Positions 5,584 to 29,708 of a stretch of DNA of 64,000 bases are shown in pieces (the stretch's first letter is position 1; the number at the start of each line of letters is the position of its first letter). The notes beneath the pieces were generated by a model that searched no databases, was not told where the DNA came from, and worked only from the letters and a program-made list of their open reading frames with translations. Origin of the DNA: Vibrio quintilis (GTDB taxonomy: Bacteria; Pseudomonadota; Gammaproteobacteria; Enterobacterales; Vibrionaceae). The stretch lies in the NCBI RefSeq assembly GCF_024529975.1, contig NZ_AP024897.1, forward strand, positions 1,550,001 to 1,614,000, in the 5' to 3' direction. Made by a program: the position numbers and the translations under genes.

Positions 5584-5614
5584 ATCTTTTCTTTTTATGT
5601 AAAAAGAGGAAATT

Positions 5615-7033: not shown

Positions 7034-7058
7034 TCAGACCTATTAAGGAATCAAACAT

Positions 7059-8157: not shown

Positions 8158-8190
8158 TCCTTTCTTTGAAAACTATTTTTTAATCCATCG

Positions 8191-8219
8191 GGGCATCTCA
8201 GTCAGAGACGCCCTTTTTT
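8191..8219 (+). terminator. Terminator before the sheath operon
   Basis: GGGCATCTC / GAGACGCCC stem (one A-C mismatch), 5-nt loop and a T6 tail. Confidence 0.75.
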
Positions 8220-8245
8220 GCATAAACCGAGAGAGTAATATCGAT

Positions 8246-9421: not shown

Positions 9422-9422
9422 T

Positions 9423-9938: not shown

Positions 9939-9949
9939 GAGAGTGAAAG

Positions 9950-10135
9950 ATGACAGAAATTACCGATAAAAAAACATATGTTGTGAATGATACCATCGAT
10001 GTCGGCTCCAAATATAAACTGGCATTTATGTTTGAAGATAAAAAATATCAGGCTGGTGATCAAATCTCACTCAATGATATTCAGGCAGCTAACCTGATTG
10101 CAGCGGGCTTTATTAAAGGTGCCACAGCTGCGTAG
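9950..10135 (+). CDS. Small phage protein between tube and gpE genes
   Basis: 61 residues, preceded by AGAGAGTGAAAG. Acidic/basic mix ending in a small helix (NDIQAANLIAAGFIKGATAA). The sequence YQAGDQISLNDIQAANLIAAGFI resembles short phage proteins often placed after tube genes. Function unknown. A terminator follows at 10204. Confidence 0.5.
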   Translation: MTEITDKKTYVVNDTIDVGSKYKLAFMFEDKKYQAGDQISLNDIQAANLIAAGFIKGATAA

Positions 10136-10203
10136 GCAAGTACGTAAGCCGGATCATCACACACGATATAATTAAATCAATACTGAACTGAAAATGAAAA
10201 CAG

Positions 10204-10227
10204 AGCGCCCTGCGGGGCGCTTTTTTT
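10204..10227 (+). terminator. Terminator after the tube operon
   Basis: AGCGCCC / GGGCGCT stem, 4-nt loop and T7. It may be partial, since the chaperone and tape-measure genes continue on the same strand 16 bp later. Confidence 0.75.
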
Positions 10228-10242
10228 ATAAAGGCCTTGAAT

Positions 10243-10590
10243 ATGACTGAATTAAATAAAGCACAAACAACTGAAACAAACGACGTAAAACCAACAAATA
10301 CACCAGCACAATTTCCGGGTGCAGATAAAGTGATCGCACTGGATACGGCTCTGGATGACGGCAAAATCACCTGTGTGGCACTGCGTAAACCGATGCCGGG
10401 TGATCTGCGTGGCCTGAAATTGCTGGATATTATTCAGATGGATGCCGGTGCGGTTGCACAGCTGATTCCACGCATAGCAATCAATCACTTCACGGCACAA
10501 CATTTCTATCAACTGGATCCGGCGGATTTGCTGGAAATCATGACGGAAATTGCAACTTTTTTCACCAAAGATCAGCACCTGACTCAGTAG
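10243..10590 (+). CDS. Tail assembly chaperone gpE (P2 E-like)
   Basis: 115 residues from the ATG at 10243 (AAGG 9 nt upstream); an in-frame TTG at 10237 is possible. The core VALRKPMPGDLRGLKLLDIIQMDAGAVAQLIPRI matches the gpE/Mu gp41-type chaperones encoded just before tape-measure genes. The protein coats the tape measure during tail assembly. Its last codons contain a T TTT TTC heptamer where a -1 shift would fuse it to E' (next entry). Confidence 0.85.
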   Translation: MTELNKAQTTETNDVKPTNTPAQFPGADKVIALDTALDDGKITCVALRKPMPGDLRGLKLLDIIQMDAGAVAQLIPRIAINHFTAQHFYQLDPADLLEIMTEIATFFTKDQHLTQ

Positions 10591-10736
10591 ACGAGGCATG
10601 GGCTGATATTGCGGCGGTCTTTCACTGGCCGCCGGAACAAATGAACGGGATGGATTTTGAGGAGCTGATGCGCTGGCGTGATCTGGCGATTGAACGCTTC
10701 AAATCAATGCATCAGGTACAATCTCAGGGCGACTAG
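10557..10736 (+). CDS. GpE' extension reached by probable -1 ribosomal frameshift
   Basis: At 10557-10563 the zero frame reads T TTT TTC. Slipping back one base gives TTT TTT CAC and then an open frame to the stop at 10734-10736. The frame encodes DEAWADIAAVFHWPPEQM...LMRWRDLAIERF, the known short gpE' family with its FHW-P motif. No good start codon or ribosome site serves this frame alone. In P2 and lambda-like phages the same gene pair is joined by a -1 shift, giving a minor long chaperone (about 164 residues here) that links gpE to the tape measure. The shift itself is inferred. Confidence 0.8.
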   Translation, partial: FFHQRSAPDSVDEAWADIAAVFHWPPEQMNGMDFEELMRWRDLAIERFKSMHQVQSQGD

Positions 10737-10811
10737 TGTCACCGGTGTCGGTCAATGAACCGGTATCTGTATTTCTGACACGAAGTCGCCCGCTTTTTTC
10801 TTGGGTGGCGC

Positions 10812-13781
10812 ATGGCATCAGATAAAAAAAATTTAGCTGTCAGACTGGAGCGGATTCGTCAGCTTCAGGCGCAACTGAATCAACAGACCCAAACGCTGGC
10901 TGACAAAACGCAATCGGTCGTTGCCGGGATCGAACAAACGGCTTCAGGCGCATTGTCTTTGGGCTCCCGGATGACAGCGTCTCTTTTTCAGGCGACCGAT
11001 CAGGCTGCTGAATTCGGCAATCACCTTGCACAAGCCGGTTTGCTGAGCGAAGGCACGAAAAACCACCTGAGCGGGTTGATTGATTCGGCAAAACAGTTTG
11101 GCGAAAAGGCGGGTTCCGGTTTTGATCAGGCAGCGCACGGGATTGAATCCCTGAAAACGGCCGGACTGGATACCGGCAAAGTCATGAATGCGCTGGTTGA
11201 TTTTGAAGGGCTGGCTGGCATGACCGGGATGGGAAATGAACTGAAAGCGATTGAAGACACAGTTCAGACCATTTTGCCGGTGGTGAGTCAGACGGTCGAT
11301 CAGGCCAGACAGGTTTCTGCTATCTTTCAGGATTTCTCTGCCGGAACGGGGCTGGACAAGTTGGGTGAGAACCTGAAAACAGCCCGGGGTCAGGCCGGGG
11401 AAACCCGCAAAGAATTCCGTAAATTCGGCAAGCTTTCAACACTCATGTTTGCCAAAATCCGCCGGGGCGACAGCCTGCCTGATTTAATGGATCACACCCT
11501 GCGGATGGCTGATGTTGCAAAGGCTGGTGCCGGAAAAATCGAAGCACTGGGCACAACCGTCAGTCAGGCTCTGGCTGCACCAACACAATATGCGGCTGAC
11601 TTTAAAGATAAAATTGCCACAGTTGCCAAAGCAGCAAATGCAACGGATGGTGAATTAGGTCAGCTGTCTGATTCAGCGAAGCGACTGGGATTAAATACAT
11701 CAATCGGCACCAGTCAGGCGATCGCCGGGATGCAGGCGCTGGCGAGTGCCGGCATGAATGCCAGCCAGATTCAGGCAGCGATGCCGGATATGATTAACAT
11801 TGCGAAAGCGTCCGGAAGTACCGGTGATCTGCATGCAGTTGGAGAAACAACGGCTGCGCTGATGGCTGAGTTCGATATCGTGCCGGAAAAAATGGGCAAG
11901 TTGTCGGATGTGCTCGCTACTGCGACCAGCGCGACCGGATTAAAACTCGGCGCGCTCGGTGAGACAATGCGTGGCATCGGTCCGATTGCCCGCCATTCCG
12001 GGATGAATCTGAAAGAAACTGCGGCGATGGCCGGGTTACTGGCGGATATGGGCGTCAAAGGTGCGGATGCCGGTGCTTCTCTGGAAGCGATGTCAGCCCG
12101 GCTGGCTTCGCCTTCTGATGCAGCGGCGGCAACATTAGATCGCCTGGGCGTCAGCACCAAAGATGCGGGCGGCAAGATGCGCAATACGGCGCAGGTCATT
12201 GGTGATGTGATTAAAGCCACCAAAGACATGGCCCCGGAAGCGCAACTGAAAGCGATGCAGGATGTACTCGGTGAAGATGCCGGGCAGGGCTTGCAGCAGG
12301 CAGCGCAGAGTGGTGGTCAGGGCGTGGCCGGTTTCAGCCAGGTTCTGAATACCAAAGACGGCGCATCGGCAGACATTGCCGGTGGCGTGGACCAAAGTAT
12401 TCAGGGCGGGATCAATAAACTGTCAGCCGTGGTGGATTCCATCAAGCTGCGGTTTGGTGATTTGATGACGCCGGTGAAAGGTTTTGCGGATTCAGTGGTC
12501 AGTGCTGCGCAGAAAGTGCCGGAAATGACTAAGGCGTATGCTGACTTTGTCGATAATGCCAAATCAGCTTACCAGTCGGTTCAGGATCTGAAAGCAGCCT
12601 GGCCACAACTCGGTCAGCGGGCCGGAAAAGCCATGCGCCGGATGAAAGCGATGGGACGTCTGTCCCGCCGTTTTTCAACCCGCACGGCTGGCCGGATGAT
12701 GCAAAGTATCCGGGGAATCAGTCAAAGCATGCTGCGCATGGTGCCGCCATCAGCGATCAATATGCTGTCGCGGTTTGGCAGCGGTTTAATGAGATTGATT
12801 CCATCCTCTGCGATTCGGATGATCTCAGGCTTTGGCGGTGTGTTAATGCGGTTAGCCATGAGCGTCTTTCCGGTGGTTATGTCCGGGATTCGTGCAATTG
12901 GCATGGCGATGATGGCTAATCCGGTTGGTCTGGTTATTACCGCTATCGCTGCGGTGGCCGGGCTGATTTACTACTACTGGGAGCCGATTAAGAAATTCAT
13001 GGGCACCTTGTGGGATGGTTTTGTCGCCGGTCTGGACTGGGTGATGGAAGCCTGGAACAACTTCAGCCTGCTCGATACGCTGAAAACATTGTTTGAATGG
13101 TCCCCGATGGGCTTATTGATGAAAGTCTGGGGCGTTGCCTTCGACTGGATTGAAGACAAGCTGGGATGGGTCGGCAAAGCTGTGTCCGGCATCTGGTCCT
13201 TTTTCTCCGGCGATGACGACGACGATGAGAAAGCGCGCAAAGAATCCGGCAGAAAACAGCAGAACAAAGCGGTTGAGCGAACTCAATCAGTGCGTCATCA
13301 AACAGCAAAGGCAGAGAAAGTCAGCCAGGCTGCGGCGAAAACTGAACCGGTTCGCCGCAGAGCGAAGCAGGCTGAAAAAATTTCCGGTAAAGCGGCGTCT
13401 TCCAAAAAACTACGGACGAAGACGGCCACTGTTGCTAAAGCAGCAGCAAAAGGGCAGGTCTCTTCTGCCGGTGGTAAACAACGCACGGTCAAAATCCCCA
13501 AAACCGTCCGTTTGAAAAAGAATTACCGCGAAACCGTTCATGCGCATAGCACACCTTCAGCCGGGAAACAGAGCCGGGCCGCATCGATTCCCGGCGCAGC
13601 AAGCCGGATGCAACGTTCAGGTCAGGGTGAAACGATGATCTCCATCAATCAGCTTGATATTCATGTGCAAGGCAATGAATCGATGGATATGCGTGATCTG
13701 GCCGGAGAAGTGCGCCGTCAGTTTATGGAGCTGATGGAGAATCAGAAAATGAAATACCGTGGAGGATTGTATGACTACTGA
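10812..13781 (+). CDS. Phage tail tape measure protein (P2 T-like)
   Basis: 989 residues. Coiled-coil N-terminal ~230 residues, then the conserved tape-measure core (about 260-600, with ANATDGELGQLSDSAKRLG and GLLADMGVKGADAGASLEAM). A hydrophobic segment at ~690-720 (ANPVGLVITAIAAVAGLIYYYW) could insert in the membrane. A Lys/Arg/Ala-rich helical stretch covers ~815-905. It sets tail length. Start chosen at GGGTGGCGC-ATG. The C-terminus overlaps gpU by 11 bp. Confidence 0.92.
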   Translation: MASDKKNLAVRLERIRQLQAQLNQQTQTLADKTQSVVAGIEQTASGALSLGSRMTASLFQATDQAAEFGNHLAQAGLLSEGTKNHLSGLIDSAKQFGEKAGSGFDQAAHGIESLKTAGLDTGKVMNALVDFEGLAGMTGMGNELKAIEDTVQTILPVVSQTVDQARQVSAIFQDFSAGTGLDKLGENLKTARGQAGETRKEFRKFGKLSTLMFAKIRRGDSLPDLMDHTLRMADVAKAGAGKIEALGTTVSQALAAPTQYAADFKDKIATVAKAANATDGELGQLSDSAKRLGLNTSIGTSQAIAGMQALASAGMNASQIQAAMPDMINIAKASGSTGDLHAVGETTAALMAEFDIVPEKMGKLSDVLATATSATGLKLGALGETMRGIGPIARHSGMNLKETAAMAGLLADMGVKGADAGASLEAMSARLASPSDAAAATLDRLGVSTKDAGGKMRNTAQVIGDVIKATKDMAPEAQLKAMQDVLGEDAGQGLQQAAQSGGQGVAGFSQVLNTKDGASADIAGGVDQSIQGGINKLSAVVDSIKLRFGDLMTPVKGFADSVVSAAQKVPEMTKAYADFVDNAKSAYQSVQDLKAAWPQLGQRAGKAMRRMKAMGRLSRRFSTRTAGRMMQSIRGISQSMLRMVPPSAINMLSRFGSGLMRLIPSSAIRMISGFGGVLMRLAMSVFPVVMSGIRAIGMAMMANPVGLVITAIAAVAGLIYYYWEPIKKFMGTLWDGFVAGLDWVMEAWNNFSLLDTLKTLFEWSPMGLLMKVWGVAFDWIEDKLGWVGKAVSGIWSFFSGDDDDDEKARKESGRKQQNKAVERTQSVRHQTAKAEKVSQAAAKTEPVRRRAKQAEKISGKAASSKKLRTKTATVAKAAAKGQVSSAGGKQRTVKIPKTVRLKKNYRETVHAHSTPSAGKQSRAASIPGAASRMQRSGQGETMISINQLDIHVQGNESMDMRDLAGEVRRQFMELMENQKMKYRGGLYDY

Positions 13782-14244
13782 TCAGGATGGCAACCAACAG
13801 TCGTCCAATAATCCGAATGTGGTGATGATGAAGCTGGGAGATTTCTCTTTCTCAGTGGAAACAGCGGCTTATCAGTCTATGAAGCGTGATTTTTCTTTTG
13901 AGTGGAAAATGGAAACTGTGGGAAAAATTCCCGGTTTGCAATTTGTGACTGAAGGCGCATATAAACGGTCACTGAGCGGGGTGATTTATCCTGAGTACAA
14001 AGGTGGATTCAGCCAGATTGACAGCATGGCAGCACTGGCCAGAACCGGCCGGCCGCTACGGCTGCTGATGGGGTCTACTGAGTCTAAACAGGCCGGGATT
14101 AACCTCGGCTTCTGGTGTATCACCAGCATCAGTGAAACAGCCACTATTTTTCACCGCAATGGCCGGCCCCGCAAGCTGGAGTTCAGTATGGGGCTGGTGT
14201 ATTACGGTAACAAATATCCGGATCCGGATAAGGAGAAAAGCTAA
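13771..14244 (+). CDS. Tail terminator / completion protein gpU-like
   Basis: 157 residues from the ATG at 13771, 5 nt after GGAGG inside the tape-measure 3' end. VMMKLGDFSFSVETAAYQSMKRDFSFEWKMETVGKIPGLQFV is typical of P2 gpU. gpU caps the tail in P2. Order T-U-X-D is conserved here. An alternative start at 13759 would place the ribosome site inside the gene. Confidence 0.88.
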   Translation: MTTDQDGNQQSSNNPNVVMMKLGDFSFSVETAAYQSMKRDFSFEWKMETVGKIPGLQFVTEGAYKRSLSGVIYPEYKGGFSQIDSMAALARTGRPLRLLMGSTESKQAGINLGFWCITSISETATIFHRNGRPRKLEFSMGLVYYGNKYPDPDKEKS

Positions 14245-14246
14245 TC

Positions 14247-14453
14247 ATGCAATACAGAACGAAAGAAGGTGATGTTGTGGATGCGATTTGTTATCGCGAA
14301 TACAGTAATGCAGCCCTGTTTGTTCAGGTGTATGAAGCGAATCCCGGACTGGCCGATTATGGCCCGGTACTGCCGGGTGGTTTGCTGATTGAGCTGCCGG
14401 ATATTTCTGTACCGGATGTGCCGGAACTGCCAAAAATCTCACTGTTTGATTAA
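14247..14453 (+). CDS. Phage tail protein X (P2 gpX-like)
   Basis: 68 residues. EGDVVDAICYREYSNAA...VYEANPGLADYGPVLPGGLLIELP is the LysM-like fold of gpX, a small baseplate hub-associated protein. Begins 2 bp after gpU. The C-terminal PDISVPDVPELPKISLFD tail is also typical. Confidence 0.88.
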   Translation: MQYRTKEGDVVDAICYREYSNAALFVQVYEANPGLADYGPVLPGGLLIELPDISVPDVPELPKISLFD

Positions 14454-14480
14454 TTGTTTCTGATATTAAAAAATGGCAAC

Positions 14481-14506
14481 GATTCAGGGGCAATAGCTCC
14501 TGAATC
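14481..14506 (+). other. Hairpin between gpX and gpD genes
   Basis: Perfect inverted repeat GATTCAGG / CCTGAATC with a 10-nt loop and no T tail. It may be an mRNA processing or stability element; it is not a convincing terminator. Confidence 0.45.
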
Positions 14507-14530
14507 CTGAACGAACCAGCAGGTAATTCA

Positions 14531-15547
14531 ATGCAACCAACATATAAAGTCATCGTTGATGGTGAAGATATTACGTCCAGGCTTGATCGCCGGCTGATGG
14601 AAATTCGTTTGACTGACGAAGTCGGCTGGTTTTCAGATACCATGACCATGGTTGTGGACGATGCCGGCGGGCGGATTAAACTGCCGAAAATCGGTAAACC
14701 GATTCAGGTTCAGCTCGGTTATGAAGAAACAGGTATTGCCCGTGTGGGTGACTACCTGATAGATGAAGCCCGAATCAGCGGACCGCCGGATCAAATGTTA
14801 ATCCGGGCACGTTCTGTTGATATGTGTCAGCAGATGAAAACATTGCGCCGCCGCTCGTGGGATCATTTATCGCTTGGCGGACTGATCGGAAAAATCGCGG
14901 AACAATATGGGCTGAAACACCGGATTACGCTTGATCTGGCTTCTGTTTTCATTGATCACATTGAGCAAAATAATGAAAGTGATATCCATTTTCTGACCCG
15001 ACTGGCCCGCCAGTATAATGCGGTCTGGAAGTCAGTCAGCGGTTATCTGATCTTCATTACTTCTCAGGAAGGAAGAACGCCGCAGGGCACGCCGCTGCCG
15101 GTATTTAAAATTCACCGGACGGGGGTGACTGAATATGAACTGTCCTGGGCCGAGCGCTCAAACCTGAAGCATGTCACTGCTTACTGGCGGGACCGGGATA
15201 AGGCACAGTTTATGCCGGAAACCGCAGGAGATACCGGCCAGCCGGGAAAAATTCTGCAGCCGGTTTATCCGGATGCCGGACGGGCGAAGGCTGCGGCCCA
15301 GGCGGAGCTGACCCGGCTGCAACAGCAGCACAAAGAGTTGTGTATTTCCATGCCGGGAAACCTGACCATGATTGCTGAAAGCCCGGTGCAGCTGACCAAT
15401 GAGGGCATCAGTGTGTCCGGCCGGGGTAAGGAACAGTCGAAAGAGCACCATCTGTGGCGCGATGGTTATCCGGGAGACTATACGGTTCACTGGGTTGAGC
15501 ATTGTTTCAAAGGCAATGGCTACACCACAACTTTCCGGGCACGCTGA
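14531..15547 (+). CDS. Baseplate hub protein gpD-like (late control D)
   Basis: 338 residues. PTYKVIVDGEDITSRLDRRLMEIRLTDEVGWFSDTMTMVVDD at the start and WVEHCFKGNGYTTTFRAR at the end are hallmarks of P2 gpD, a hub protein of contractile tails related to the T4 gp27/VgrG fold. Last gene of the module: a strong terminator follows and no ogr, integrase or attachment site is visible downstream, unlike P2. Confidence 0.9.
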   Translation: MQPTYKVIVDGEDITSRLDRRLMEIRLTDEVGWFSDTMTMVVDDAGGRIKLPKIGKPIQVQLGYEETGIARVGDYLIDEARISGPPDQMLIRARSVDMCQQMKTLRRRSWDHLSLGGLIGKIAEQYGLKHRITLDLASVFIDHIEQNNESDIHFLTRLARQYNAVWKSVSGYLIFITSQEGRTPQGTPLPVFKIHRTGVTEYELSWAERSNLKHVTAYWRDRDKAQFMPETAGDTGQPGKILQPVYPDAGRAKAAAQAELTRLQQQHKELCISMPGNLTMIAESPVQLTNEGISVSGRGKEQSKEHHLWRDGYPGDYTVHWVEHCFKGNGYTTTFRAR

Positions 15548-15602
15548 TGCGTTGTCCGCCAATCTCATTTCTTTAACTTTTCTTTTTCATGTTATGTTTT
15601 GA

Positions 15603-15652
15603 CCTGTGTTCTCAAGGCTTTATTCATTGCCTTGAGAGCACAGGCTTTTTTT
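15603..15652 (+). terminator. Strong terminator closing the contractile tail module
   Basis: 16-bp stem (CCTGTGTTCTCAAGGC / GCCTTGAGAGCACAGG, one T-G wobble), 10-nt loop and a T7 tail. Confidence 0.9.
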
Positions 15653-15869
15653 GTTCCTGAAATTCACATTTCTCTCTTCTCATTCTCATTTCATCTCTTC
15701 TCTTTTTCCGCTCACAATTGATAAATTATCTCAAACCTCTCACAAATACTGATGATAACCCACTTAATAAGTACTTCTTTTAATTCTGAAACTGATAATC
15801 GGAGAGCCTGTATATTCTTAATATAATCAGCGATTTATGTGTAATGTTATTTATATCAACAAATAAAAA

Positions 15870-15884
15870 CAATAATTATTATCG
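15870..15884 (+). promoter_or_regulatory. Candidate Fur box
   Basis: CAATAATTATTATCG matches 11 of the 14 bases of the 7-1-7 Fur consensus (TGATAAT-N-ATTATCA). An isolated perfect TGATAAT half-site occurs about 80 bp upstream, near 15792-15798. Position directly before a sigma70-like -35 element fits iron repression of the NRPS operon. Confidence 0.5.
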
Positions 15885-15913
15885 TTGACGACTGAACTAA
15901 TACTAATTACCAT
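15885..15913 (+). promoter_or_regulatory. Possible sigma70 promoter for the NRPS operon
   Basis: TTGACG, 17-bp spacer, TACCAT, adjacent to the Fur box. If used, the transcript has a 5' UTR of about 750 nt, which is unusually long, so another promoter closer to the gene is possible. Confidence 0.4.
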
Positions 15914-16667
15914 AGTTGCATATGCGGTCGCTTATCGGTGACTTCTTACTTATGGCACTTTTAAGGTATGCCATTCACAGAAAAACGTTGAAGCTGAGAG
16001 TGCGATGACTCAACCTGAGAAAATTCTCTGTGGTGAGTCTCATTGATGTTGTTATTCATTCAGACTTTAGCAATGACCGCAGATAATATTGCTCGGCGTT
16101 CTTTAATCAGAGTGTTATATCCATTGTTTCATCCGGAGTTTTGGTGCCTCTGCCGGAAAGCTATGTATATTCTTGTTTTCAGATGAAATACCTTTGTCTT
16201 CAGGGCAACATTCGTCTCAAAACATGATGATTATAGCTGCTATTCAGTCCGGTTGCTCTGTACTTATTTTTGGATATTGCTGTTCACTTCTTTAGTTCAG
16301 GTCAGAATTCAGACCTTCACACGCCGAAACCGTATCGGATTAGGTGACATTGATACTGTTCTCAATCAGTTTATAAACTGACCGGAGTCCATCCGGGTTC
16401 TTTCTGAATCTGTTGTGTTCCGGTGACCCAAACTCATACCACAAATATGTCCGGCTCTGGCGGAGAGTTCTGTATGCCCGCAGGCAATCGTTTACTTACG
16501 CTGCCCCCGGACAGAGATAATGACGGGAAGCCAGCTTTGTCAGCTGTTTGTTCCGTCGTTTTTTCATGGTGGCCGGGTCGGTTGACTGATTGTCGTTTTA
16601 CATCATTTATTGAACTAAATCATCAGGGTACTCATCACGACGATGAAACAATGGAGGAAAAATCTTT

Positions 16668-19600
16668 ATGACCGTTAAGACTTTGCTATCCGAAATGGAA
16701 GCGTTGGGAGTCAGGCTATGGACGGAAGCTGGTCAATTGCGCTTTCAGGCACCGGTAGGCGTTTTGACTGAAGACCACCGTAACAGGTTGAAAGCTGCAA
16801 AAGAGGATTTAATCGCTCTTTTGGACGCTCAGGCAGCCGGAGTACAACAAGATCTTGAACACCGTTATGCCCCGTTTCCTCTGACGCCCATACAGGCTGC
16901 ATATCTGGTGGGACGTGGTGATGCATTTGAGTATGGTGGGGTGGGTTGTCATGGTTATCTTGAGCTGAACTTTGACCGGCTGGATATTGAGCGGATGAAA
17001 CAAGCGTGGACTCAGCTGATTCAGCGGCATCCGATGCTGAGGGCCGTGATTTTGCCGGATGGCGTCCAGCAGGTGCTTGAAGACTTTGAGATGCCTGAAG
17101 TGATTGTGACAGATTTAACCACACAGCCCGCAGCAGATGCGGCTCAGAAACTTGAAGCGATTCGTGCTCAAATGGGCAGTAAAGTTTATACCCCGGAGCA
17201 GGCACCGTTGTATGAGCTGAGCATCAGCCGGATGCCGGCGCACGATACGCTGCATGTGTCGGTGGACTTACTGATTGCTGACTTTGTCAGTATTCAGGTG
17301 TTGCTGTCTGAGCTGGACCACTTATATCGTCACCCGGAAGAAGAATTACCTGCAATTCGCGCCGGTTTCCGCGATATCTTGCTGGCGGAACGGGCCGCGA
17401 TTGACACACCGGCAGGACAGGCGAAATATACGCGGGACAAGCAATACTGGACCGAACGTTTAAACACGCTGCCACCTGCGCCTGACTGGCCGGTTCAGGA
17501 GACACAGCAGAAATACGGTAAAGCCGCCTTTGCCCGCCATGACTTTACGCTGGAGAAAGAGAAATGGCAGCAGTTGCAGCAAAAAGCACGGGATCAGCGG
17601 ATGACATCGTCCGGTGTGGTGCTGGCTGCTTTCAGCGAAGTGTTGCGCCGCTGGTCTGCGACCAAAAGCTTTTGTGTCAATGTGACCGTGTTAAACCGTC
17701 CGGCGATTCACGAAGACATTCACCGGATTATCGGTGACTTTACCCAGATCAATATTCTGGAAGTGAAAGAAGCTCCCGGCACAGATTTTATAACCCGCAC
17801 ACGTCACCTGCAGGATCAACTGTTAACAGACCTTGAACACAGCAGTTATACCGGTGTCGATTTACTCAGAGATATTGGCCGGAGCGCGGAAACCCGTGGT
17901 CGTCTGATGCCTTATGTCTTTACCAGTACACTGGGTGCCGGCAAAGGAGACAATGAATCTTTCATGGAAGGTGCGACGCTGGCTTACGGTATTTCACAGA
18001 CACCTCAGGTCTGGCTGGACTGCCAGGTCTCGGAACGTGATGGCAGCCTGCACCTCAACTGGGATGTACGCGAAGGCGTTTTCCGCGATGGGGTGATAGA
18101 ACAGGCGTTTGATGCTATGTGCCGGCTTATCTGTGACCTGGCAGAGAACGATCGCTGGCTTGAATCGTCAGTTGTGACCCTTCCTGAAAACCTGCTCGAT
18201 CAGAGAAAGCTGCAAAACCTGATTCAGGCACCTTTACCGCAAAACCCTTTACACGCAGGTTTCATACGCCAGGTTGTCGAAACACCGGACCGGATCGCTG
18301 TTTCGGCAGACAAACAGCATTACACCTACAAAGCGCTGGCAGAAAAAGCGGCAGCTGTTGCTTCATGGTTAAAAGACAATGGCATCAGCCAGGCGGAACC
18401 GGTGGCTGTGTGCCTGCCGAAATCATTTGATCAAATTGCTGCCGTCATGGGCGTAATGCTTGCTGGTGGTGCTTATGTGCCGCTTTCTGCTGAACAGCCA
18501 CGCCATCGCCATAACCTGATTATGCAGGATGCCCGGATAACCAAACTCATCACTGATCAGGCCAACAGTCAGGGATGGGATGAGCCTATCCGCAGTCTGT
18601 ATACGGAAAACGCCCAACCCGCCCCGTTTTTGCCGGAAGCATGGATACAGACTGAATTTGAGCCGCAGCAACTGGCCTACGTTATTTTTACTTCAGGAAC
18701 AACAGGCAAGCCAAAAGGCGTGATGATCAGCCATCAGGCGGCGCAAAATACACTGTCCGATGTGTCCACGAGAATCAGCCTGCAGGCCGCAGATAAAGTA
18801 CTCGGACTGGCGAGCCTGAGTTTTGATTTATCGGTTTACGATGTCTTTGCCACCTTGTCCTGTGGTGCGGCGCTGGTGTTGCCGGAAACAGATCAGCTGA
18901 ATAATCCGGCGCACTGGCTGGAATTGCTGACCACCCATGAAATCACTGTCTGGAACTCCGTACCGGCACAGTTACAGATGCTGACCAGTGTACTGGAAGA
19001 TCAGGCTGTATCCCTGTCATTACGGGTTGCAATGTTATCCGGTGACTGGATACCAGTGAGTCTGCCGGATACCGCCAGACGCTTTATTCCGGATCTGAGA
19101 ATCATCAGTATGGGCGGCGCAACAGAAGCTGCTGTCTGGTCGGTCTGGTATGACATTGAGTCGGTTAAACCCACAGATAAAAGTATTCCTTATGGCCGTC
19201 CGATGAATAATCAGGGCTTCCATATTCTGGATGACGACATGCAGCCGTGTCCGGACTGGGTACCTGGTGCGCTGTATATTTCCGGACACGGTCTGGCACT
19301 CGGCTATATGGGAGATCCACAGAAAACCCGTCAGCAGTTTGTCACGCATCCGCAAACCGGAGAGCGTTTGTATCAAACCGGCGATAACGGACGCTTCCGC
19401 GAAGATGGTTTGATCGAATTCCTTGGCCGGAATGATACACAGGTCAAAATTAACGGCCACCGGATTGAATTAAGTGAAATTGATTCTGTGCTGCAGCAAC
19501 ATCCGCAGGTGGCACATGTGACCAGTGTGATCAGCCAGCAGGAAGATGATGAAAAACGGCTGGCAGCCTTTATTGAAGCCGCCTATTTAACTGAACCGGC

Positions 19601-22184
19601 AAGGGATGATCGTCAAGCGCTGAGTGACTGTCTGCTGACGACCGGTGATGGAATTACCGCAGAAGTGGACCGGGATAAGCTGGTGCAGTGGGTGGAATGT
19701 GCCGATCGGATTGCGCTGCTGGATATCATGAAAACCTTTCAGGACAGCGGTTTGTTCCAGAGCGCGGACCATGGCTATACGTTAGCGGAAATCATTGAAG
19801 CCACTCACACTTCCGATGACTATCATCACCTGATGCGGCGGTGGCTGCATGCACTGAGTGGTTTTGGCTGGCTGAAAGAATCTCAGAGTTTGTATTACTG
19901 TATCCGGCCATACAGCGGGCAGGAGCACGACAATACCTGGCAAAAACTGCAACAGCTGGAAGATGAAGTGCAGTACAGCGCGGAATTACTCCGCTATCTG
20001 CGTGAGTCAGCCGCCGCATTACCACAGCTTCTGACCGGTGAAGCGGATCCGCTCGATCTGTTATTCCCTCAGGGAGAGATGGATACGGCTCTGGCCGCGT
20101 ATAACAACAATCTGGTTGCCCGGACGATGAACCGGTGCGTGGTTGCTGCAGCAGAGCAACATGCGCAGAAATTCACCAAAGAAAAGCCGATGCGTCTGCT
20201 GGAAATCGGTGCCGGTGTCGGCGGGACATCGAACGATGTGATTCCCGCACTGGATGGCTATGCGGTCGATTACCAGTTTACGGATTTATCCACCTATTTC
20301 CTGAATGCGGCCCGTGAGCGTTACAGTCAGTATCCCTGGGTCAGATACGGTATTTTCGATCTCAATCAGCCCAACTGGCTGCAGGGACAACCCGATCGCA
20401 GCCTGGACATGATTGTGTGCGCGAATGTGCTGCATAACTCAGTTTATGCGCCTGATGTACTGGCACAGCTGCGGCGGATGGTGGTGCCCGGAGGCCTGAT
20501 TGTCATCATTGAAGCCACACGGGAAATTTACTCTCTGATGACGTCGATGGAGTTCAAACACGGCCTGAACGGATTTAAAGATTTCCGGCAGCAAACCGGG
20601 CAGACCTTCATTACCCGCAAGCAGTGGGTCGGACTGTTTGCCGATGCTGAGCTGGAATTACTCGGCGGATATCCGCTTGAAGACGATCCGATGAGTTATG
20701 CCGGACAAACCACCTTCCTTGTCCGCGCGCCGAAAACCCGGCATGTCGTGAGACAGGAAGACATGACCGGCTGGCTGGCAGAGCGCCTGCCGGCCTATAT
20801 GGTGCCTTCTTATATCGAAGTGCTTGAGCACCTGCCGTTGACCGCCAATGGTAAAGTTGACCGCAAAACACTGGCAAAACGGGTTGTTACACCGAAAACC
20901 GGCCAGGCCGTGGAAAATACCGGTGACATGACGGACATGGAGCAAAAAGTTGCTGCCATCTGGTCTGATGCATTAGGCGGCGTGCCGGTCGGACGGGATC
21001 AGGACTTCTTCCTTGCCGGCGGAGACTCGCTGTTGATCGCTCAGGTGGTCACCCGTTTGCGTGAGCAGATTCCGCAGTCACAGGCGCTGAGCTGGGACCG
21101 GCTGATGCGGGAAATGCTGAGTAAACCGACAGTCGCTCATATCGCAAAATTACTGGCGCATATTGAAGCTGGTGCTGAAAGTGAGAATGAAGGGTGTGTC
21201 GAGGTGTCACCCCTGGTACATCTGGCAGGTGCTGCAACGCCTTCAGAGCAGGGCGTGACCCGGATTCTGGTTCATGACGGCAGCGGTACACTGGCGCCTT
21301 ACCGGGAAGTCATCGCTGCAATTCAGGCGGCCATGAGAGAGGAAGACAGTCTGTTCGGCCTGACGCTGACTGACAATGCACAATTTTTACAGCGGCCAAC
21401 CGATGGTCTGATAGAAGAACTGGGCAGTGAATATGCAGCGCTGGTGGCAGATTTGGGTGTCAGCCGGGTGCAGGTGATTGGTTACTGTATGGGGGGCTTT
21501 ATCGCTGCTGAAATCTCCCGTAACCTGCTGGAAGCTGGTGTTGAACCGCATTGCTTTGCCGTCAGCAGTGGTAAATTCCAGCACCAGATTGAGGAAGATC
21601 TGTTACTGGAGCGTGCGTTTGCAACCCTGATGGGGGCTGAGCTGGTGGAAGCGGGGCATGCTCCGGACCATGAGGCACTGGATCGGGCAATTCAGCAAGT
21701 CATGTCGAAACATCAGGGGGTTATTCCTGAAGGCAGCATGTTGCAGTGCGAGGATGAATCTATTCGCCGGGCTTACACGGCGCTGGCAGAAAAACCTCAT
21801 CCACAGCGACTGAAAATGATCGCGACTGCCATGGCAGACGTGCAGGACAATGTCTGGAATGATGATCAGATTCAGAGTGTTTACCAGGTCTTCCGGCATA
21901 GCCTGACGGCCGTGGCAAACTATAATCCGTTGCCTTATCTGGGCGCACTTTCCATTTTTAACGATGATCAGTCGGTACAGCTTCTGCCGGGATTACCGGT
22001 TGAAATGAGCAGTATCTGGGAGGAAATATCTTTGGGGATCGCAGAACAATCAGTCATCAATGCCAATCATGTGACCTGTATGACGGGTGAGAGTCTTCAT
22101 CAGTGGCTGAAAGCACTGTTTGCTGGTGCGCCATTTGAACAGACATCAGCCAAAGAACAAACTGCCGAGGAATCATTATCATGA
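16668..22184 (+). CDS. PchF-type non-ribosomal peptide synthetase (docking-Cy-A-MT-PCP-TE)
   Basis: 1838 residues, close to the length I recall for pyochelin synthetase PchF. Domains: TubC_N-like docking domain (1-55); cyclisation domain (~65-500) with D200-xxxx-D205-xxS in place of HHxxxDG; adenylation domain (FTSGTTGKPKG, 674-684) with pocket residues D720, L721, Y724, N763 as in the cysteine code; methyltransferase (LLEIGAGVGGTS near 1178-1188) inserted before the A10 motif NGKVDRKTL (~1394); PCP with phosphopantetheine Ser1454 in AGGDSLL; C-terminal thioesterase whose elbow reads GYCMGG, with Cys1607 where Ser is usual. Expected chemistry: load cysteine, cyclise it onto an upstream acyl group to a thiazoline, N-methylate the reduced ring and release. 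The acyl donor module is not in the window. First gene of a four-gene overlapping operon. Confidence 0.92.
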   Translation: MTVKTLLSEMEALGVRLWTEAGQLRFQAPVGVLTEDHRNRLKAAKEDLIALLDAQAAGVQQDLEHRYAPFPLTPIQAAYLVGRGDAFEYGGVGCHGYLELNFDRLDIERMKQAWTQLIQRHPMLRAVILPDGVQQVLEDFEMPEVIVTDLTTQPAADAAQKLEAIRAQMGSKVYTPEQAPLYELSISRMPAHDTLHVSVDLLIADFVSIQVLLSELDHLYRHPEEELPAIRAGFRDILLAERAAIDTPAGQAKYTRDKQYWTERLNTLPPAPDWPVQETQQKYGKAAFARHDFTLEKEKWQQLQQKARDQRMTSSGVVLAAFSEVLRRWSATKSFCVNVTVLNRPAIHEDIHRIIGDFTQINILEVKEAPGTDFITRTRHLQDQLLTDLEHSSYTGVDLLRDIGRSAETRGRLMPYVFTSTLGAGKGDNESFMEGATLAYGISQTPQVWLDCQVSERDGSLHLNWDVREGVFRDGVIEQAFDAMCRLICDLAENDRWLESSVVTLPENLLDQRKLQNLIQAPLPQNPLHAGFIRQVVETPDRIAVSADKQHYTYKALAEKAAAVASWLKDNGISQAEPVAVCLPKSFDQIAAVMGVMLAGGAYVPLSAEQPRHRHNLIMQDARITKLITDQANSQGWDEPIRSLYTENAQPAPFLPEAWIQTEFEPQQLAYVIFTSGTTGKPKGVMISHQAAQNTLSDVSTRISLQAADKVLGLASLSFDLSVYDVFATLSCGAALVLPETDQLNNPAHWLELLTTHEITVWNSVPAQLQMLTSVLEDQAVSLSLRVAMLSGDWIPVSLPDTARRFIPDLRIISMGGATEAAVWSVWYDIESVKPTDKSIPYGRPMNNQGFHILDDDMQPCPDWVPGALYISGHGLALGYMGDPQKTRQQFVTHPQTGERLYQTGDNGRFREDGLIEFLGRNDTQVKINGHRIELSEIDSVLQQHPQVAHVTSVISQQEDDEKRLAAFIEAAYLTEPARDDRQALSDCLLTTGDGITAEVDRDKLVQWVECADRIALLDIMKTFQDSGLFQSADHGYTLAEIIEATHTSDDYHHLMRRWLHALSGFGWLKESQSLYYCIRPYSGQEHDNTWQKLQQLEDEVQYSAELLRYLRESAAALPQLLTGEADPLDLLFPQGEMDTALAAYNNNLVARTMNRCVVAAAEQHAQKFTKEKPMRLLEIGAGVGGTSNDVIPALDGYAVDYQFTDLSTYFLNAARERYSQYPWVRYGIFDLNQPNWLQGQPDRSLDMIVCANVLHNSVYAPDVLAQLRRMVVPGGLIVIIEATREIYSLMTSMEFKHGLNGFKDFRQQTGQTFITRKQWVGLFADAELELLGGYPLEDDPMSYAGQTTFLVRAPKTRHVVRQEDMTGWLAERLPAYMVPSYIEVLEHLPLTANGKVDRKTLAKRVVTPKTGQAVENTGDMTDMEQKVAAIWSDALGGVPVGRDQDFFLAGGDSLLIAQVVTRLREQIPQSQALSWDRLMREMLSKPTVAHIAKLLAHIEAGAESENEGCVEVSPLVHLAGAATPSEQGVTRILVHDGSGTLAPYREVIAAIQAAMREEDSLFGLTLTDNAQFLQRPTDGLIEELGSEYAALVADLGVSRVQVIGYCMGGFIAAEISRNLLEAGVEPHCFAVSSGKFQHQIEEDLLLERAFATLMGAELVEAGHAPDHEALDRAIQQVMSKHQGVIPEGSMLQCEDESIRRAYTALAEKPHPQRLKMIATAMADVQDNVWNDDQIQSVYQVFRHSLTAVANYNPLPYLGALSIFNDDQSVQLLPGLPVEMSSIWEEISLGIAEQSVINANHVTCMTGESLHQWLKALFAGAPFEQTSAKEQTAEESLS

Positions 22185-23284
22185 GCGCTGTTATTGGTGT
22201 GACCGGCATCACCGGAATGGTCGGGAAAGCATTGCTTTCCCTGATTGAAACTTATCAGCCTGATGCCCGGATTTGTCTGGGTGTCAGGCAGCCGGAGCGT
22301 CTGGCTGACAGCCCGTATCCGGTTGTTCATGTTGATCTGGAACAGCCGGCGTCTCTGGCTGCGTTTTGTCAGGGCTGTGATGTCATCGTTAATTGTGCCG
22401 GTCCTTCTGCATTTTATGGCCTCAATGTTGCGCGTGCAGCGGCTATCGCCGGGGCTCACTGCATTGAGGCATTTGGCAGTTATGGCCCGGATTCTGCCAG
22501 CGAGCTGGATGAAATCATTGCTGTTCCCGGCGCGCGAAGTGTGATTACCGGGGCGGGAGTGTTCCCCGGATTGTCCGAATTACTGCCGTTAGCAATGGCT
22601 GACCGGTATTTTGATAACGTCAGCACACTGCATGCTGCTGCCGGCGGGCTGGAGCCCTGTTCGAAAGGTGCCGGGATTGACATACTGATGAGTGCAGTCG
22701 CCGGATATGGTCAGGCAGCAGGTGCCGATCTGACAGAGCTGGAAGGCTTTCCGCCTCACATCATTGCCAAGCCATTCCGGAGTACGGATTTTGTCCAAAT
22801 GACGGAGACATTCGGTTGTCAGGAAGCCAGCTGGTATTCGGTTTTTTCTTCACCCCGGGTACCGGAAGTGATTTCTGCTCAGTGCCACCGGCTGGCTTCA
22901 GCCGGTGATTTTACGGAAAGTATGATGTTGTCCGCAGCTGAAAAACTGATTGAAGTTGCCGATGAACAGCTGGCCGGCAGAAAACCATGGTACCGGATGC
23001 GTATTGAGATGAGCGGCAGCCAGCAGGGGGAACCGCTGTGTTACCGGGCACTGCTGCAGACACCGGAAAGTTATGTGCTGACGGCGCTGACCATGTATGC
23101 CGCATTAAAAACTGTGCTGCAGGATCTTTCCCTGCAGGGCTGTTACCGCGCCAGCCACATTGTCAGCCCTGAACTGATGGTGTCTCTGATCAAAGATGAT
23201 GAACGTCATCAGCTGCATATTGTTCAGGTTCCGGTTCATTCAACACTGATTGATTCCACAGAAACAGAGGAAGGCTTCTTATAA
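22181..23284 (+). CDS. Saccharopine dehydrogenase-like oxidoreductase, possible PchK-type thiazoline reductase
   Basis: 367 residues, start overlaps the NRPS stop by 4 bp. N-terminal Rossmann motif GVTGITGMVG (residues 6-15) and the NCAGPSAFYGLNVARAAAIAGAHCIEAFG segment place it in the NAD(P)-binding saccharopine dehydrogenase-like superfamily. From memory, the thiazoline reductase PchK of enantio-pyochelin clusters belongs to this superfamily and is unrelated to PchG, so reduction of an NRPS-bound ring is plausible. It is unusual that a PchG-type reductase follows immediately. Function is inferred from context. Confidence 0.7.
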   Translation: MSAVIGVTGITGMVGKALLSLIETYQPDARICLGVRQPERLADSPYPVVHVDLEQPASLAAFCQGCDVIVNCAGPSAFYGLNVARAAAIAGAHCIEAFGSYGPDSASELDEIIAVPGARSVITGAGVFPGLSELLPLAMADRYFDNVSTLHAAAGGLEPCSKGAGIDILMSAVAGYGQAAGADLTELEGFPPHIIAKPFRSTDFVQMTETFGCQEASWYSVFSSPRVPEVISAQCHRLASAGDFTESMMLSAAEKLIEVADEQLAGRKPWYRMRIEMSGSQQGEPLCYRALLQTPESYVLTALTMYAALKTVLQDLSLQGCYRASHIVSPELMVSLIKDDERHQLHIVQVPVHSTLIDSTETEEGFL

Positions 23285-24411
23285 TGACTGATACATTGAT
23301 GAAATCCAGTGATTCGGTGCAACCTTTACGGGTGTTACTGTGTGGTGCCGCTTTTGGTGAAGTGTATCTGAAAGCGATAGAGCGCCTGCCTCAGTACTTT
23401 CAGCTGGCTGGTGTGATGGCCCGCGGGAGCGAACACAGCCGGAAGATTGCACAAGCGCATCAGGTGCCACTGGTGACATCGGTTGATGAGGTGTCGAAAG
23501 CCGATTTTGATCTTGCCTGTGTGGTGATTAAATCAGGCGTAGTCGGTGGCCCCGGCACCAAAATCAGCTGTGCTTTGATGGAAAAAGAGATTCCGGTGAT
23601 TCAGGAATACCCGTTGCACTGTGATGAAGTGGTTCAGTGCATCAAAACGTCGAATCAGTTTAAGACGCCGTGGGTGATGAACAGTTTTTATCCCGATGTT
23701 GCACCGGTCCGGCGGTTTATCGAAGCGGTACAGGGACTGCGCAAGCTGTCAGATATCTGTGCTATCAATATTGAAACCAGTATTCAGGTGATGTATCCGC
23801 TGATTGATATTCTGATGCAGAGTCTGGGAAATCTGCGACCGTGGCGTTTCTCTGAAGTCCTGTTTCAAAACGGGCCATTCTCCGTCATTTCGGCCCGGTT
23901 TGGCACTATTCCCGTGGTGTTTCATATTCAGAATCAGATTCATCCGGATGATCCGGACAATTACATGCACGTATTACACCGTATTTCGGTGACATCAGAA
24001 GATGGCACACTGACACTGAATGATACTCACGGTGATGTGACCTGGTCGCCACGGGCGCACGTCCCCAGAAACGAACAGGGATATCTGGATTTGTTTAATG
24101 ACGATTATCCGCAGATGAAAGAGAAAGTCCTGCAATCGCTGACCGGCGAAGGCGGTGATTCACCGGTTCGCTATGCCGAAGTTTTCAGTCAGTTGTTGCC
24201 GGAGGCGATGGAAAAAGTGCTGACCCGCTTTTATCATCAGGTTGTCCGGGGAGATCTGAACCGGCCGCTTCAACAGCGGCTGCTGACAACCTGCCAGTGC
24301 TGGCAGGCACTGAATGAAGCGTTGGGACCAACGGAAGTGATCAGTCAGGAGCGGCCATACCGGTTGATCACTGCCCGGCACCTGGAGGAAGCGATTGATG
24401 ATTTACAATAA
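23284..24411 (+). CDS. Thiazolinyl imine reductase (PchG/Irp3-like)
   Basis: 375 residues; the ATG overlaps the previous stop by one base. RVLLCGAAFGEVYL (about 16-29) is the atypical dinucleotide-binding motif of the Irp3/PchG family, a Gfo/Idh/MocA-like branch. The later IPVIQEYPLHCDEV region is also typical. Known members reduce a thiazoline ring on the carrier protein to a thiazolidine using NADPH in yersiniabactin and pyochelin assembly. It would act in trans on the PCP of the upstream NRPS. Confidence 0.85.
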   Translation: MTDTLMKSSDSVQPLRVLLCGAAFGEVYLKAIERLPQYFQLAGVMARGSEHSRKIAQAHQVPLVTSVDEVSKADFDLACVVIKSGVVGGPGTKISCALMEKEIPVIQEYPLHCDEVVQCIKTSNQFKTPWVMNSFYPDVAPVRRFIEAVQGLRKLSDICAINIETSIQVMYPLIDILMQSLGNLRPWRFSEVLFQNGPFSVISARFGTIPVVFHIQNQIHPDDPDNYMHVLHRISVTSEDGTLTLNDTHGDVTWSPRAHVPRNEQGYLDLFNDDYPQMKEKVLQSLTGEGGDSPVRYAEVFSQLLPEAMEKVLTRFYHQVVRGDLNRPLQQRLLTTCQCWQALNEALGPTEVISQERPYRLITARHLEEAIDDLQ

Positions 24412-25288
24412 CCAGTCTCAGGGGCAGTTCTCAGAGATGCCCGTTTCTGACGTAACTGAGCCTGACCGTCAACCACAGAACCGGGGGCAAAGCGCCCCCG
24501 CAGGATCAAAAAGCGCCCCCGCAGGCTCCAAATGGTTGAAAGTGTTTGCGCCCAATCCGGACGCATCGCTTCGGTTAATCTGCCTGCCACACGCGGGCGG
24601 CGGCGCCAGTGCCTATGCGACCTGGGCTAAATTATTACCGGTACATACCGAGCTGGTGGCGTTACAGTTACCGGGCAGGGAAGACCGGCTGGCAGAGCCG
24701 ATGATTGACTCGATGCCGGCGCTGGTCAATATACTGCTGCCTTATCTGCTGCAACTGAGTGACAAGCCATATGTTTTATTCGGCCATAGTATGGGCGCGG
24801 TGCTGGCCTATGAAATTTGTCAGATGATGCTCAGAACCGGTCAGCGGCTGCCGGAGCATTTAATCGTCTCCGGCCGGGAAGCGCCCCGACTGAGTCGTGC
24901 CGATAATCTCCACCTCGTGCCGGATCAGGAACTGACGGAAGCGATGATCAAACTGGAACCACAGAGTCAGGCGGTGTTTGATCATCCGGAACTGGCAGCC
25001 ATCAGCCTGCCGGTGATTCGCAATGATTACCGGCTGATTAATGGTTACCGGTATCACCCGGACAGCCAGAGGCTCAACCTTCCGCTGACTGCAATCAGCG
25101 GTGACGATGATCCGGAATTATTACCCGGTGACATGTCAGCATGGCAGGAAGTCACTGAAGGGCATTTCAGCTGGCATCGTTTCAGTGGCGGGCATTTCTA
25201 TCTGAAACCACACCGGGAAGGCGTGGTCCGGATTATTGCTGACGTCATGAATACCGTGTTACAGAAGCAGGACAACCACGTCGCATAA
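24398..25288 (+). CDS. Type II (editing) thioesterase, PchC/Irp4-like
   Basis: 296 residues from the ATG at 24398, 9 nt after GGAGG and overlapping the reductase stop. Alpha/beta hydrolase with LICLPHAGGGASAYATW, LQLPGREDRLAEP and nucleophile Ser131 in GHSMG; a histidine near the C-terminus (SGGHFYLKPH) completes the triad. It removes wrongly loaded acyl groups from carrier proteins. The ~45-residue N-terminal extension is unusual and contains a direct 7-residue repeat (SAPAGSK twice) made by a 21-bp tandem duplication. Confidence 0.88.
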   Translation: MIYNNQSQGQFSEMPVSDVTEPDRQPQNRGQSAPAGSKSAPAGSKWLKVFAPNPDASLRLICLPHAGGGASAYATWAKLLPVHTELVALQLPGREDRLAEPMIDSMPALVNILLPYLLQLSDKPYVLFGHSMGAVLAYEICQMMLRTGQRLPEHLIVSGREAPRLSRADNLHLVPDQELTEAMIKLEPQSQAVFDHPELAAISLPVIRNDYRLINGYRYHPDSQRLNLPLTAISGDDDPELLPGDMSAWQEVTEGHFSWHRFSGGHFYLKPHREGVVRIIADVMNTVLQKQDNHVA

Positions 25289-26019: not shown

Positions 26020-26694
26020 ATGAATAAAAACAGACTGATACAGGTCATGGAGAAAGATTTGAAAAATTATAAAGCTTATTTATTTGATTTGGATGGCACG
26101 CTGGTGAATTCTGAGCCTTTAAAAGGGCGGGCGATTGCGCTGACCTGCCATGATTATGGCTTCCCGGTTGATTATCATCTGTATCAAACGGTGATGGGGC
26201 AGCACTGGTCAGCAGTGACGGCGCATTTCTTTCAACACGCAGGATTTAATCCGGATCAGGCTGAATTTGATCAGAAATTCAGGGCGCATTATGAACAGTT
26301 ACTTGCCCGGGAATTAGCGCTGAACCCCGGTGTGTCTGACTATCTGCAATCCCTGCAAGATGCCGGTCAGCCCTGTGCTGTGGTGAGCTCCGGCGCCCGC
26401 TGGATGGTGGAAAATATTCTCAGTGCGATGCAGATCGCAAAGATATTCAGCGTGGTGATTGCCAGAGAAGATGTCACCCGTCATAAGCCGGATCCGCAGG
26501 GGTATTTGTCCGCCTTGTCTCAGCTGGGCGTTGCGCCGCAAGACGCGCTGATCTTTGAAGATTCTGCAGCAGGGATTGAATCAGGCATCGCCTCCGGGTG
26601 TGATGTGGTTGCCTTTGCCCACGAATTTAATGCAAACAATGATCTATCTCAGGCGGTACAGGTGATTTCAGATTATAGTCAAATGGGCCGGTAG
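26020..26694 (+). CDS. HAD-superfamily hydrolase (phosphatase / beta-phosphoglucomutase-like)
   Basis: 224 residues. Motif I YLFDLDGTLVNSEP (Asp nucleophile), motif II VVSSGAR, Lys of motif III in TRHKPDPQGYL, and motif IV IFEDSAAGIESGIASG define subfamily IA with a helical cap. It probably dephosphorylates a sugar phosphate; the substrate is not predictable. The start is uncertain: ATG 26020 or 26047, neither with a strong ribosome site. Confidence 0.85.
   Translation: MNKNRLIQVMEKDLKNYKAYLFDLDGTLVNSEPLKGRAIALTCHDYGFPVDYHLYQTVMGQHWSAVTAHFFQHAGFNPDQAEFDQKFRAHYEQLLARELALNPGVSDYLQSLQDAGQPCAVVSSGARWMVENILSAMQIAKIFSVVIAREDVTRHKPDPQGYLSALSQLGVAPQDALIFEDSAAGIESGIASGCDVVAFAHEFNANNDLSQAVQVISDYSQMGR

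Positions 26695-28454: not shown

Positions 28455-29708
<1,254 letters not shown>

Follow-up and report, generated by a model that had tools for sequence, protein, structure and literature searches.

A PchF-type operon of Vibrio quintilis as the probable second half of a two-locus thiazoline pathway with a shared docking tag

The closest described relatives of the system analysed here are the assembly lines for pyochelin, enantio-pyochelin and watasemycin–thiazostatin, which combine a PchF-type module with an upstream module like PchE, a PchK- or PchG-type reductase and a type II thioesterase (TE); these parts recur here, with reductases of both types. In the excerpts used of PMC3377617 and PMC8150894, PchK is named a saccharopine dehydrogenase/reductase, and the excerpt used of PMC9113145 treats docking of a short linear motif (SLiM) on a beta-hairpin docking domain (bHD) as established at the junctions of a peptidyl carrier protein (PCP) with a condensation (C) or heterocyclisation (Cy) domain, including the productive SLiM of watasemycin Sven_0512. 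In this work, we analyse a stretch of 64,000 nucleotides from Vibrio quintilis (contig NZ_AP024897.1, positions 1,550,001 to 1,614,000; G000:C1:1550001-1614000, hereafter the window), which carries a four-gene operon around a PchF-type module of a non-ribosomal peptide synthetase (NRPS). This operon probably encodes the later half of a thiazoline pathway that is split over two loci and assembled in trans, and the earlier half would be a synthetase of 2,407 amino acids with a fatty-acyl-AMP ligase (FAAL), acyl carrier proteins (ACP), a ketosynthase (KS) and an adenylation (A) domain in the order FAAL-ACP-KS-ACP-Cy-A-PCP. With less assurance, we lean towards a more specific proposal, that in lines whose PchF begins with a bHD (bHD-PchF) the upstream synthetase and then the PchK-type reductase alternate on this one docking domain via an EEGxL tag, and that halves 2 Mb apart thereby give a fatty-acid-started, salicylate-free analogue of pyochelin.

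The four genes lie on the forward strand and overlap head to tail. The first (16668-22184) encodes the PchF-type terminal module, 1,838 amino acids ordered bHD(TubC_N)-Cy-A-MT-PCP-TE (MT, methyltransferase), and is followed by a PchK-type reductase with a saccharopine-dehydrogenase fold (22181-23284, 367 amino acids), a PchG/Irp3-type thiazolinyl imide reductase (23284-24411, 375 amino acids) and a type II (editing) TE (24395-25288, Pfam Thioesterase). Open reading frames and Pfam/NCBIfam domain calls thus bear out the initial annotation, which had described a tight overlapping operon of one termination module, two reductases and an editing TE. That annotation had also noted the lack of adjoining starter, salicylate or transport genes, and none stands beside the operon in positions 1-30 kb of the window, where gene content was read. 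It had named a complete cluster beyond a misassembled border as what would overturn it; no such cluster appears in the same 30 kb, and the related genome G174 is split alike.

At the start of the PchF-type module lies the bHD (residues 3-52; 16674-16823, forward strand; TubC_N, PF18563, 3.9e-15), the only TubC_N that a profile search found in the genome (G000, 5.85 Mb in three contigs). Its AlphaFold2 model is alpha-beta-beta-alpha-alpha with a mean predicted local distance difference test (pLDDT) score of 77, and its top 11 matches in the PDB all contain a bHD, two of them at E ≤ 0.001; the window module therefore has the N-terminal bHD fold of the SLiM-bHD class. Pfam agrees with the earlier reading of a single terminal module with a TubC_N-like docking domain, and the partner synthetase that this reading had placed elsewhere in the genome has a good candidate 2.03 Mb from the operon, at C1:3595323-3602546 (L014:2324-9547, minus strand). 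This protein ends in YEEGAL, a short C-terminal tag on the upstream subunit as in SLiM-bHD pairs, which is the same in G174, and it is the only one of the genome's condensation-domain proteins with an EEGxL-type end. EEGxL followed by a stop occurs five times in the genome versus eight in the reversed control. Two of the five are the ends of the window reductase and of the partner, one closes a frame of 46 codons, and at the remaining two no frame of at least 40 codons stops.

Residues 1-550 of the partner match the structures 7r7f and 3kxw, which we take to be fatty-acyl-AMP ligases, and its N-terminal AMP ligase looks like a FAAL. For residues 1255-2225, the ACP2-Cy-A part, PchE (7emy) is the best solved-structure match (1.2e-204), so that a PchE-like carrier-Cy-A-PCP module is present in the genome. 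Its Cy motif is DMVIADAMS, and its A-domain code, DLFNLSLIW, is, like the DLYNMSMVW of the window module, presumably of the cysteine type. By Pfam, the partner has no acyltransferase (AT), ketoreductase (KR) or TE, and its A domain has no methyltransferase-like insert. Its KS keeps the Cys and the second His, and NGTGT replaces HGTGT in both G000 and G174.

The genome holds 31 condensation-family stretches, three of which have the usual Cy-type DxxxxDxxS motif: the one in the window, C1:3597237-3598409 and C2:91596-92894. The last belongs to a protein of 1,555 amino acids (C2:91509-96176, L140) that combines Cy-like condensation domains in tandem (DMIAADALS and a second DxxxxD) with an A domain and that may be part of a vibriobactin-like catechol pathway. 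We rejected it as the partner: it has no carrier or TE in Pfam, ends in ALLHTT and is 24–29% identical to the synthetases compared. A 955-residue C-A protein 6.5-9.4 kb past the right edge of the window (L011:6495-9362) was likewise rejected, being without Cy motif, Pfam carrier and tag.

The PchK-type reductase of the operon ends in TEEGFL, and we propose that its EEGFL (23267-23281, forward strand) is a docking tag for the bHD as well; in the portions of the literature searched, we found no report of a tag on PchK. To place it in context, named genomes were scanned with three PchK-type (saccharopine-dehydrogenase-like, SDH) relatives, using internal peptide patterns only, and the best 80 of 127 relatives were kept. 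Of the 80 SDH loci, 65 have a bHD-PchF encoded on the strand of the reductase gene, and the reductase ends in [ED][ED]Gx[LIV] in 56 of these 65 versus 3 of the 15 without a detected bHD. The nine remaining ends among the 65 are EQGVI, EAGSL, EAGAL, five xVGAL and one unrelated sequence, whereas 12 of the 15 reductases without a detected bHD have unrelated ends. Two of the three tagged ones sit where a contig end cuts a large frame just upstream (L099 and L128, the latter with a TE motif); in the third, L073 of Gordonibacter, none of the frames across its 21 kb resembles a synthetase, which makes it a genuine exception and counts against a shared socket. The association of tag and bHD has a Fisher p of 8e-9 without these three and of 1.5e-6 with them as exceptions, both values being too optimistic because the sequences are related.

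Of 12 SDHs from outside the survey set, 9 have a strict tag, and the misses come from Pantoea (EQGVI), Clostridiaceae (ETDFI) and a Klebsiella plasmid (SGGAL). Strict tag ends are found in only 4 of 7,282 other frames of the 80 loci, three of which stop at a bHD start and one of which is a frame of 1,528 amino acids. Among 42 less-redundant sequences of the 65, the last five reductase positions hold 3.35, 2.89, 4.03, 1.82 and 3.59 bits versus 0.52–1.15 in the preceding 25. In five actinobacterial loci (L061, L068, L071, L075 and L082) the reductase ends in xVGAL and has lost the acidic pair; the synthetases there end in EDGSL in four and in EEGEL in L068. The PchF-like frame of L119 (Terasakiispira) has one internal TGA, so that it may be broken or hold a sequence error.

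The upstream synthetases of the named loci carry similar ends. Forty of 59 fit the strict pattern, most of the rest read ESGxI or xTGxI, and two of the frames chosen are of unrelated sequence; with a looser pattern, a tag-ending frame meets the bHD start at the junction in 61 of 65 loci. Synthetases 5' of bHD-PchF end in EEGxL or slightly different forms of it (EEGTV, ETGEL) in clusters from Azospirillum, Pantoea, four Streptomyces, Vibrio lentus, Pseudoalteromonas and Burkholderia, and a divergent end was found in a Clostridiaceae cluster.

Whether the reductase tail is conserved as protein or as RNA matters here, as the EEGxL codons could act as the Shine-Dalgarno site of the overlapping gene that follows instead of encoding a docking tag. 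We hold this to be unlikely, even though a start lies within 12 nucleotides of 55 of the 59 strict-tail reductase genes (an overlapping ATG follows that of the window), a Shine-Dalgarno-like string occurs in 56 of the 59 tails, and it is present in 53 of 55 coupled tails versus 14 of 61 coupled PchF ends. Those PchF ends serve as a control, since 61 of 65 are coupled too and none of the 61 bears the tail. Furthermore, Glu in the tail is encoded by GAG in 90 of 105 cases, like in the gene body (690 of 865); Leu comes last in 61 of 65 reductases, which coupling does not demand; and the tail is kept in four reductases without a start within 12 nucleotides and in the uncoupled partner (189 nt; 224 nt in G174). 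From the PchF controls, the Glu codon use, the Leu end and the uncoupled cases we therefore take the tag to be conserved mainly as amino acids. The Shine-Dalgarno explanation is not supported, though the codons of the tag may have an extra ribosome-binding role.

The two reductases of the operon come from two different families. The PchK-type one has weak Pfam matches only (epimerase and a saccharopine-dehydrogenase-like NADP domain) and no NCBIfam match; its AlphaFold model (mean pLDDT 91.7) has the fold of carboxyspermidine and saccharopine dehydrogenases by structure match, its gene lies beside pchF, and its last ten residues are the only stretch modelled below 50. The third frame reaches 264.7 bits with TIGR01761, thiazolinyl imide reductase (cut-off 188.8), and matches Irp3-like_C. 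Two thiazoline reductases of the pyochelin type are thus predicted, by sequence or fold, a pairing that is not unusual, as a PchG/Irp3-type reductase is also present in 62 of the 80 loci.

We then considered co-occurrence in 296 genomes of the family and, more widely, in 369 of the class. The window PchK-type reductase is found at E ≤ 1e-10 in two of the 296, G000 and G174. The partner passes 1e-200 in 18, four of which (G000, G174, G047 and G188) match from the FAAL end, and 1e-250 in the class in one of 369, its own genome. All four family genomes with a full-length FAAL-type synthetase also carry the PchF-reductases-TE block, two in split and two in contiguous form. In G174, the two loci share a contig of 3.93 Mb, with about 2 Mb between them; the four operon frames are intact and their proteins 81–88% identical (reductase 83%, PchF 86%), and the partner is 84% identical, with its FAAL-ACP1, KS and Cy-A-PCP parts at 85–87% each. 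Surroundings are alike too, with a D-like tail gene and a counterpart of window gene 26020-26694 around the operon and a very large repeat-rich gene, a major facilitator superfamily (MFS) gene and nifD/nifK around the partner. In both genomes, the partner has nif genes within a few kb (nifHDK in G000, nifDK in G174), and a TonB receptor gene (L009:4171-6180) is interspersed among those of G000.

The two contiguous versions, in G047 and G188, are colinear with the proposed pathway, as a TonB receptor, a FAAL-KS-Cy synthetase, a bHD-PchF, SDH-like and Irp3-like reductases and a TE follow one another in a single run. Their synthetase of 3,785 amino acids (FAAL-ACP-KS-ACP-Cy-A-(MT-like)-PCP-Cy-A-PCP, domains read in G047) ends in FEEGTL and overlaps the bHD protein by 4 bp, and their SDH-like protein matches that of the window with a BLAST E of about 1e-8, hence outside the reductase count at 1e-10. 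An origin of the two halves from different donors was considered and set aside: a rapid phylogeny of the N-terminal parts of 28 PchF proteins does not reject a single clade that joins the window PchF to the colinear ones (p-AU 0.70).

From these genes, domains, tags, co-occurrence patterns and colinear versions we infer the docking, the order of reactions, the fatty-acid start, the product and any use in metal uptake. The FAAL of the partner would load a fatty acid, which the AT-less KS, with Asn for the His of HGTGT, would pass to the second carrier without extension. Cy1 and A1 of the partner would then add and cyclise a cysteine, the EEGAL tag would engage the bHD with which the window synthetase begins, and Cy2 and A2 of that synthetase would add and cyclise a second one. 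After the donor synthetase leaves, the PchK-type reductase is probably recruited to the same bHD socket by its EEGFL, because it carries the same tag; the PchK- and/or PchG-type reductase would reduce a ring, the MT would methylate, and the Cys-type TE would release an alkyl analogue of pyochelin. The predicted product is a fatty-acyl bis-cysteine thiazoline/thiazolidine. Its first ring should keep the L configuration because the A domain of the partner has no methyltransferase-like epimerase insert, by the rule linking this insert to ring configuration in the part used of PMC6604713.

Several observations weigh against this scheme. The window PchF is 86% identical to that of G174, and its next relative among the loci compared is that of Pseudomonas karstica (48%), with the PchF of the colinear cluster of G047 only at 36%. 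Furthermore, G000 and G174 are related, so that their co-occurrence is not independent, and the genome does hold the third Cy-type protein. NGTGT in the partner KS presumably marks it as non-elongating by the rules for polyketide synthases, and the His of HGTGT is intact in G047 and G188. From this difference, the starter may be extended in the G047/G188 group but not in the G000/G174 group. The MFS neighbour of the partner scores as a lactate transporter and so lends no support to a dedicated exporter, and no Fur-like site of at least 12 matches was found upstream of the partner, which lends none to co-regulation. Finally, SLiM-bHD pairs are described as promiscuous in the excerpt used of PMC9113145.

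On the operon side, a weak Fur-box-like palindrome lies about 0.8 kb upstream (15865-15886, 14 of 19 matches to a Fur consensus), with a score that 4% of mononucleotide shuffles reach. Although this stretch is conserved in G174, the palindrome there scores 13 matches, which 21% of shuffles reach. Regulation of both halves by Fur was thus discarded, the weak site being at the operon only. No TonB receptor gene adjoins either half in G000, nor is one obvious near the G174 partner among frames of at least 200 codons, and a role in metal uptake is uncertain.

Other uses of the same genes were weighed against the two-locus pathway. EntE might load ACP2 of the partner in trans with 2,3-dihydroxybenzoate (DHB) for a catechol-capped pyochelin analogue, leaving FAAL-ACP-KS idle or for other conditions. 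The genome does encode an isochorismate synthase and a protein scoring above the cut-off for a DHB-AMP ligase, and partner residues 1255-2225 align to PchE from residue 12, a region that we take to be its aryl carrier. We nevertheless consider this quite improbable, since the DHB genes sit elsewhere, in a separate DHB/catecholate gene group with a catecholate-receptor-like gene, and all four partner versions compared retain the FAAL core motif and the serine of ACP1. Between G000 and G174, moreover, FAAL-ACP1 (87%) is at least as conserved as Cy-A-PCP (85%), and linker-ACP2 is the least conserved part (67%). Salicylate is not an evident starter either, in line with the earlier remark that the operon lacks salicylate genes: the genome encodes four chorismate-binding enzymes, which score as EntC/DhbC, PabB, TrpE and MenF, and none is a salicylate synthase above cut-off, with no separate search made for a stand-alone salicylate ligase.

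The operon could also be the inactive relic of a contiguous cluster that lost its upstream synthetase, as neither such a synthetase nor a transporter adjoins it. This is very unlikely given that the four frames are intact and 81–88% identical in G174, that both genomes retain a synthetase with a matching tag and that no synthetase remnant is recognisable in the 1.1 kb 5' of the operon (best tblastn E 0.96). We give the least credence to a small thiazolidine made by the four genes alone, as the initial annotation had entertained, or together with a different source of the acyl group, for example the third Cy-type protein. The operon is self-contained but for the acyl donor, but its bHD has a tagged partner in the genome, a tag-like frame end meets the bHD start in most named loci under the loose pattern given above, the third Cy-type protein lacks both tag and Pfam carrier, and the block accompanies the full-length synthetase type wherever the latter was found among the 296 family genomes.

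The remaining domains of the window synthetase follow the PchF plan. The Cy domain (residues 104-507; 16977-18188; motif DLLIADFVS), whose Condensation match starts at profile position 38, precedes the A domain (AMP-binding, 18267-19520). An MT domain (Methyltransf_12, 20199-20501) lies between the A core and the A C-terminal subdomain, an insertion that we assume to be as in PchF, and is followed by the PCP (PP-binding, 20943-21071, with the serine of GGDSL) and the terminal TE (Pfam match at 21390-21674), all on the forward strand. In the TE nucleophile motif, GYCMGG, Cys 1607 (codon at 21486-21488) replaces Ser. The nucleophile is Cys in the seven PchF proteins compared first; a regular-expression survey of the 65 loci, which is incomplete, gave Cys in 38 and Ser in 1, with the motif not found in 26. 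The type II TE probably starts downstream of the listed TTG at 24395, because similarity to a Pantoea relative begins only at residue 47.

Left of the operon are phage tail genes, part of a set of contractile-phage morphogenesis genes (virion structural protein, sheath, head closure, tape measure and tail proteins) at 1703-15547, and directly beyond the right edge of the window there is a J-like tail-fibre gene (L011:5-1486). A D-like tail gene adjoins the operon in G174 as well. The right neighbour is a DUF1820 gene. Rfam gave no match at E 0.1 in 15500-16700. An array of 6-bp units with an 18-bp higher period (78% and 73% matches) at 28509-28916 gives long low-complexity frames on both strands.

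An operon that looks like an orphan may thus belong to a two-locus pathway that cluster-by-cluster genome mining would probably miss, with a predicted fatty-acyl instead of salicyl thiazoline product. It also suggests that stand-alone thiazoline reductases find their module via the docking tag of the upstream synthetase, which would be a usable part for assembly-line engineering. No named compound for this operon was found in the portions of the literature searched.

Compared with known systems, the SLiM-bHD pairs of epothilone, tubulysin, rhabdopeptide, enacyloxin and FR-901375 have, as far as the sources used go, the same bHD at the N terminus of a Cy or C module and the tag on the upstream carrier, whereas in the window a free-standing reductase bears the tag too. 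That tailoring enzymes may carry such a tag is partly anticipated by PMC9113145, the excerpt used of which mentions SLiMs C-terminally on 'oxidases' as well as on carriers. Micacocidin and massiliachelin, of the agrochelin type, share the FAAL-ACP-KS start followed by thiazoline-forming modules and have AT and KR (PMC6604713, in the part used); of their FAAL-ACP-KS-AT-KR-ACP starter, the partner has the FAAL-like ligase, ACP and KS, with AT and KR not found by Pfam and NGTGT as its KS motif. Piscibactin, photoxenobactin and yersiniabactin are thiazoline metallophores too, and the sources used place piscibactin in Vibrionaceae. Their domain order differs from that of the window pathway, and micacocidin and massiliachelin lines make an alkylsalicylate. 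Piscibactin, photoxenobactin and yersiniabactin are salicylate-started in the part used of PMC12421891, unlike the pathway proposed here. The order PchF-SDH-Gfo/Idh-hydrolase of the window recurs in Pantoea sp. At-9b. Relative to the pyochelin type, the window pathway is set apart by its FAAL-ACP-KS starter, by the lack of a detected salicylate synthase, by an upstream A domain without a methyltransferase-like insert in Pfam and by an upstream synthetase that is encoded 2 Mb away.

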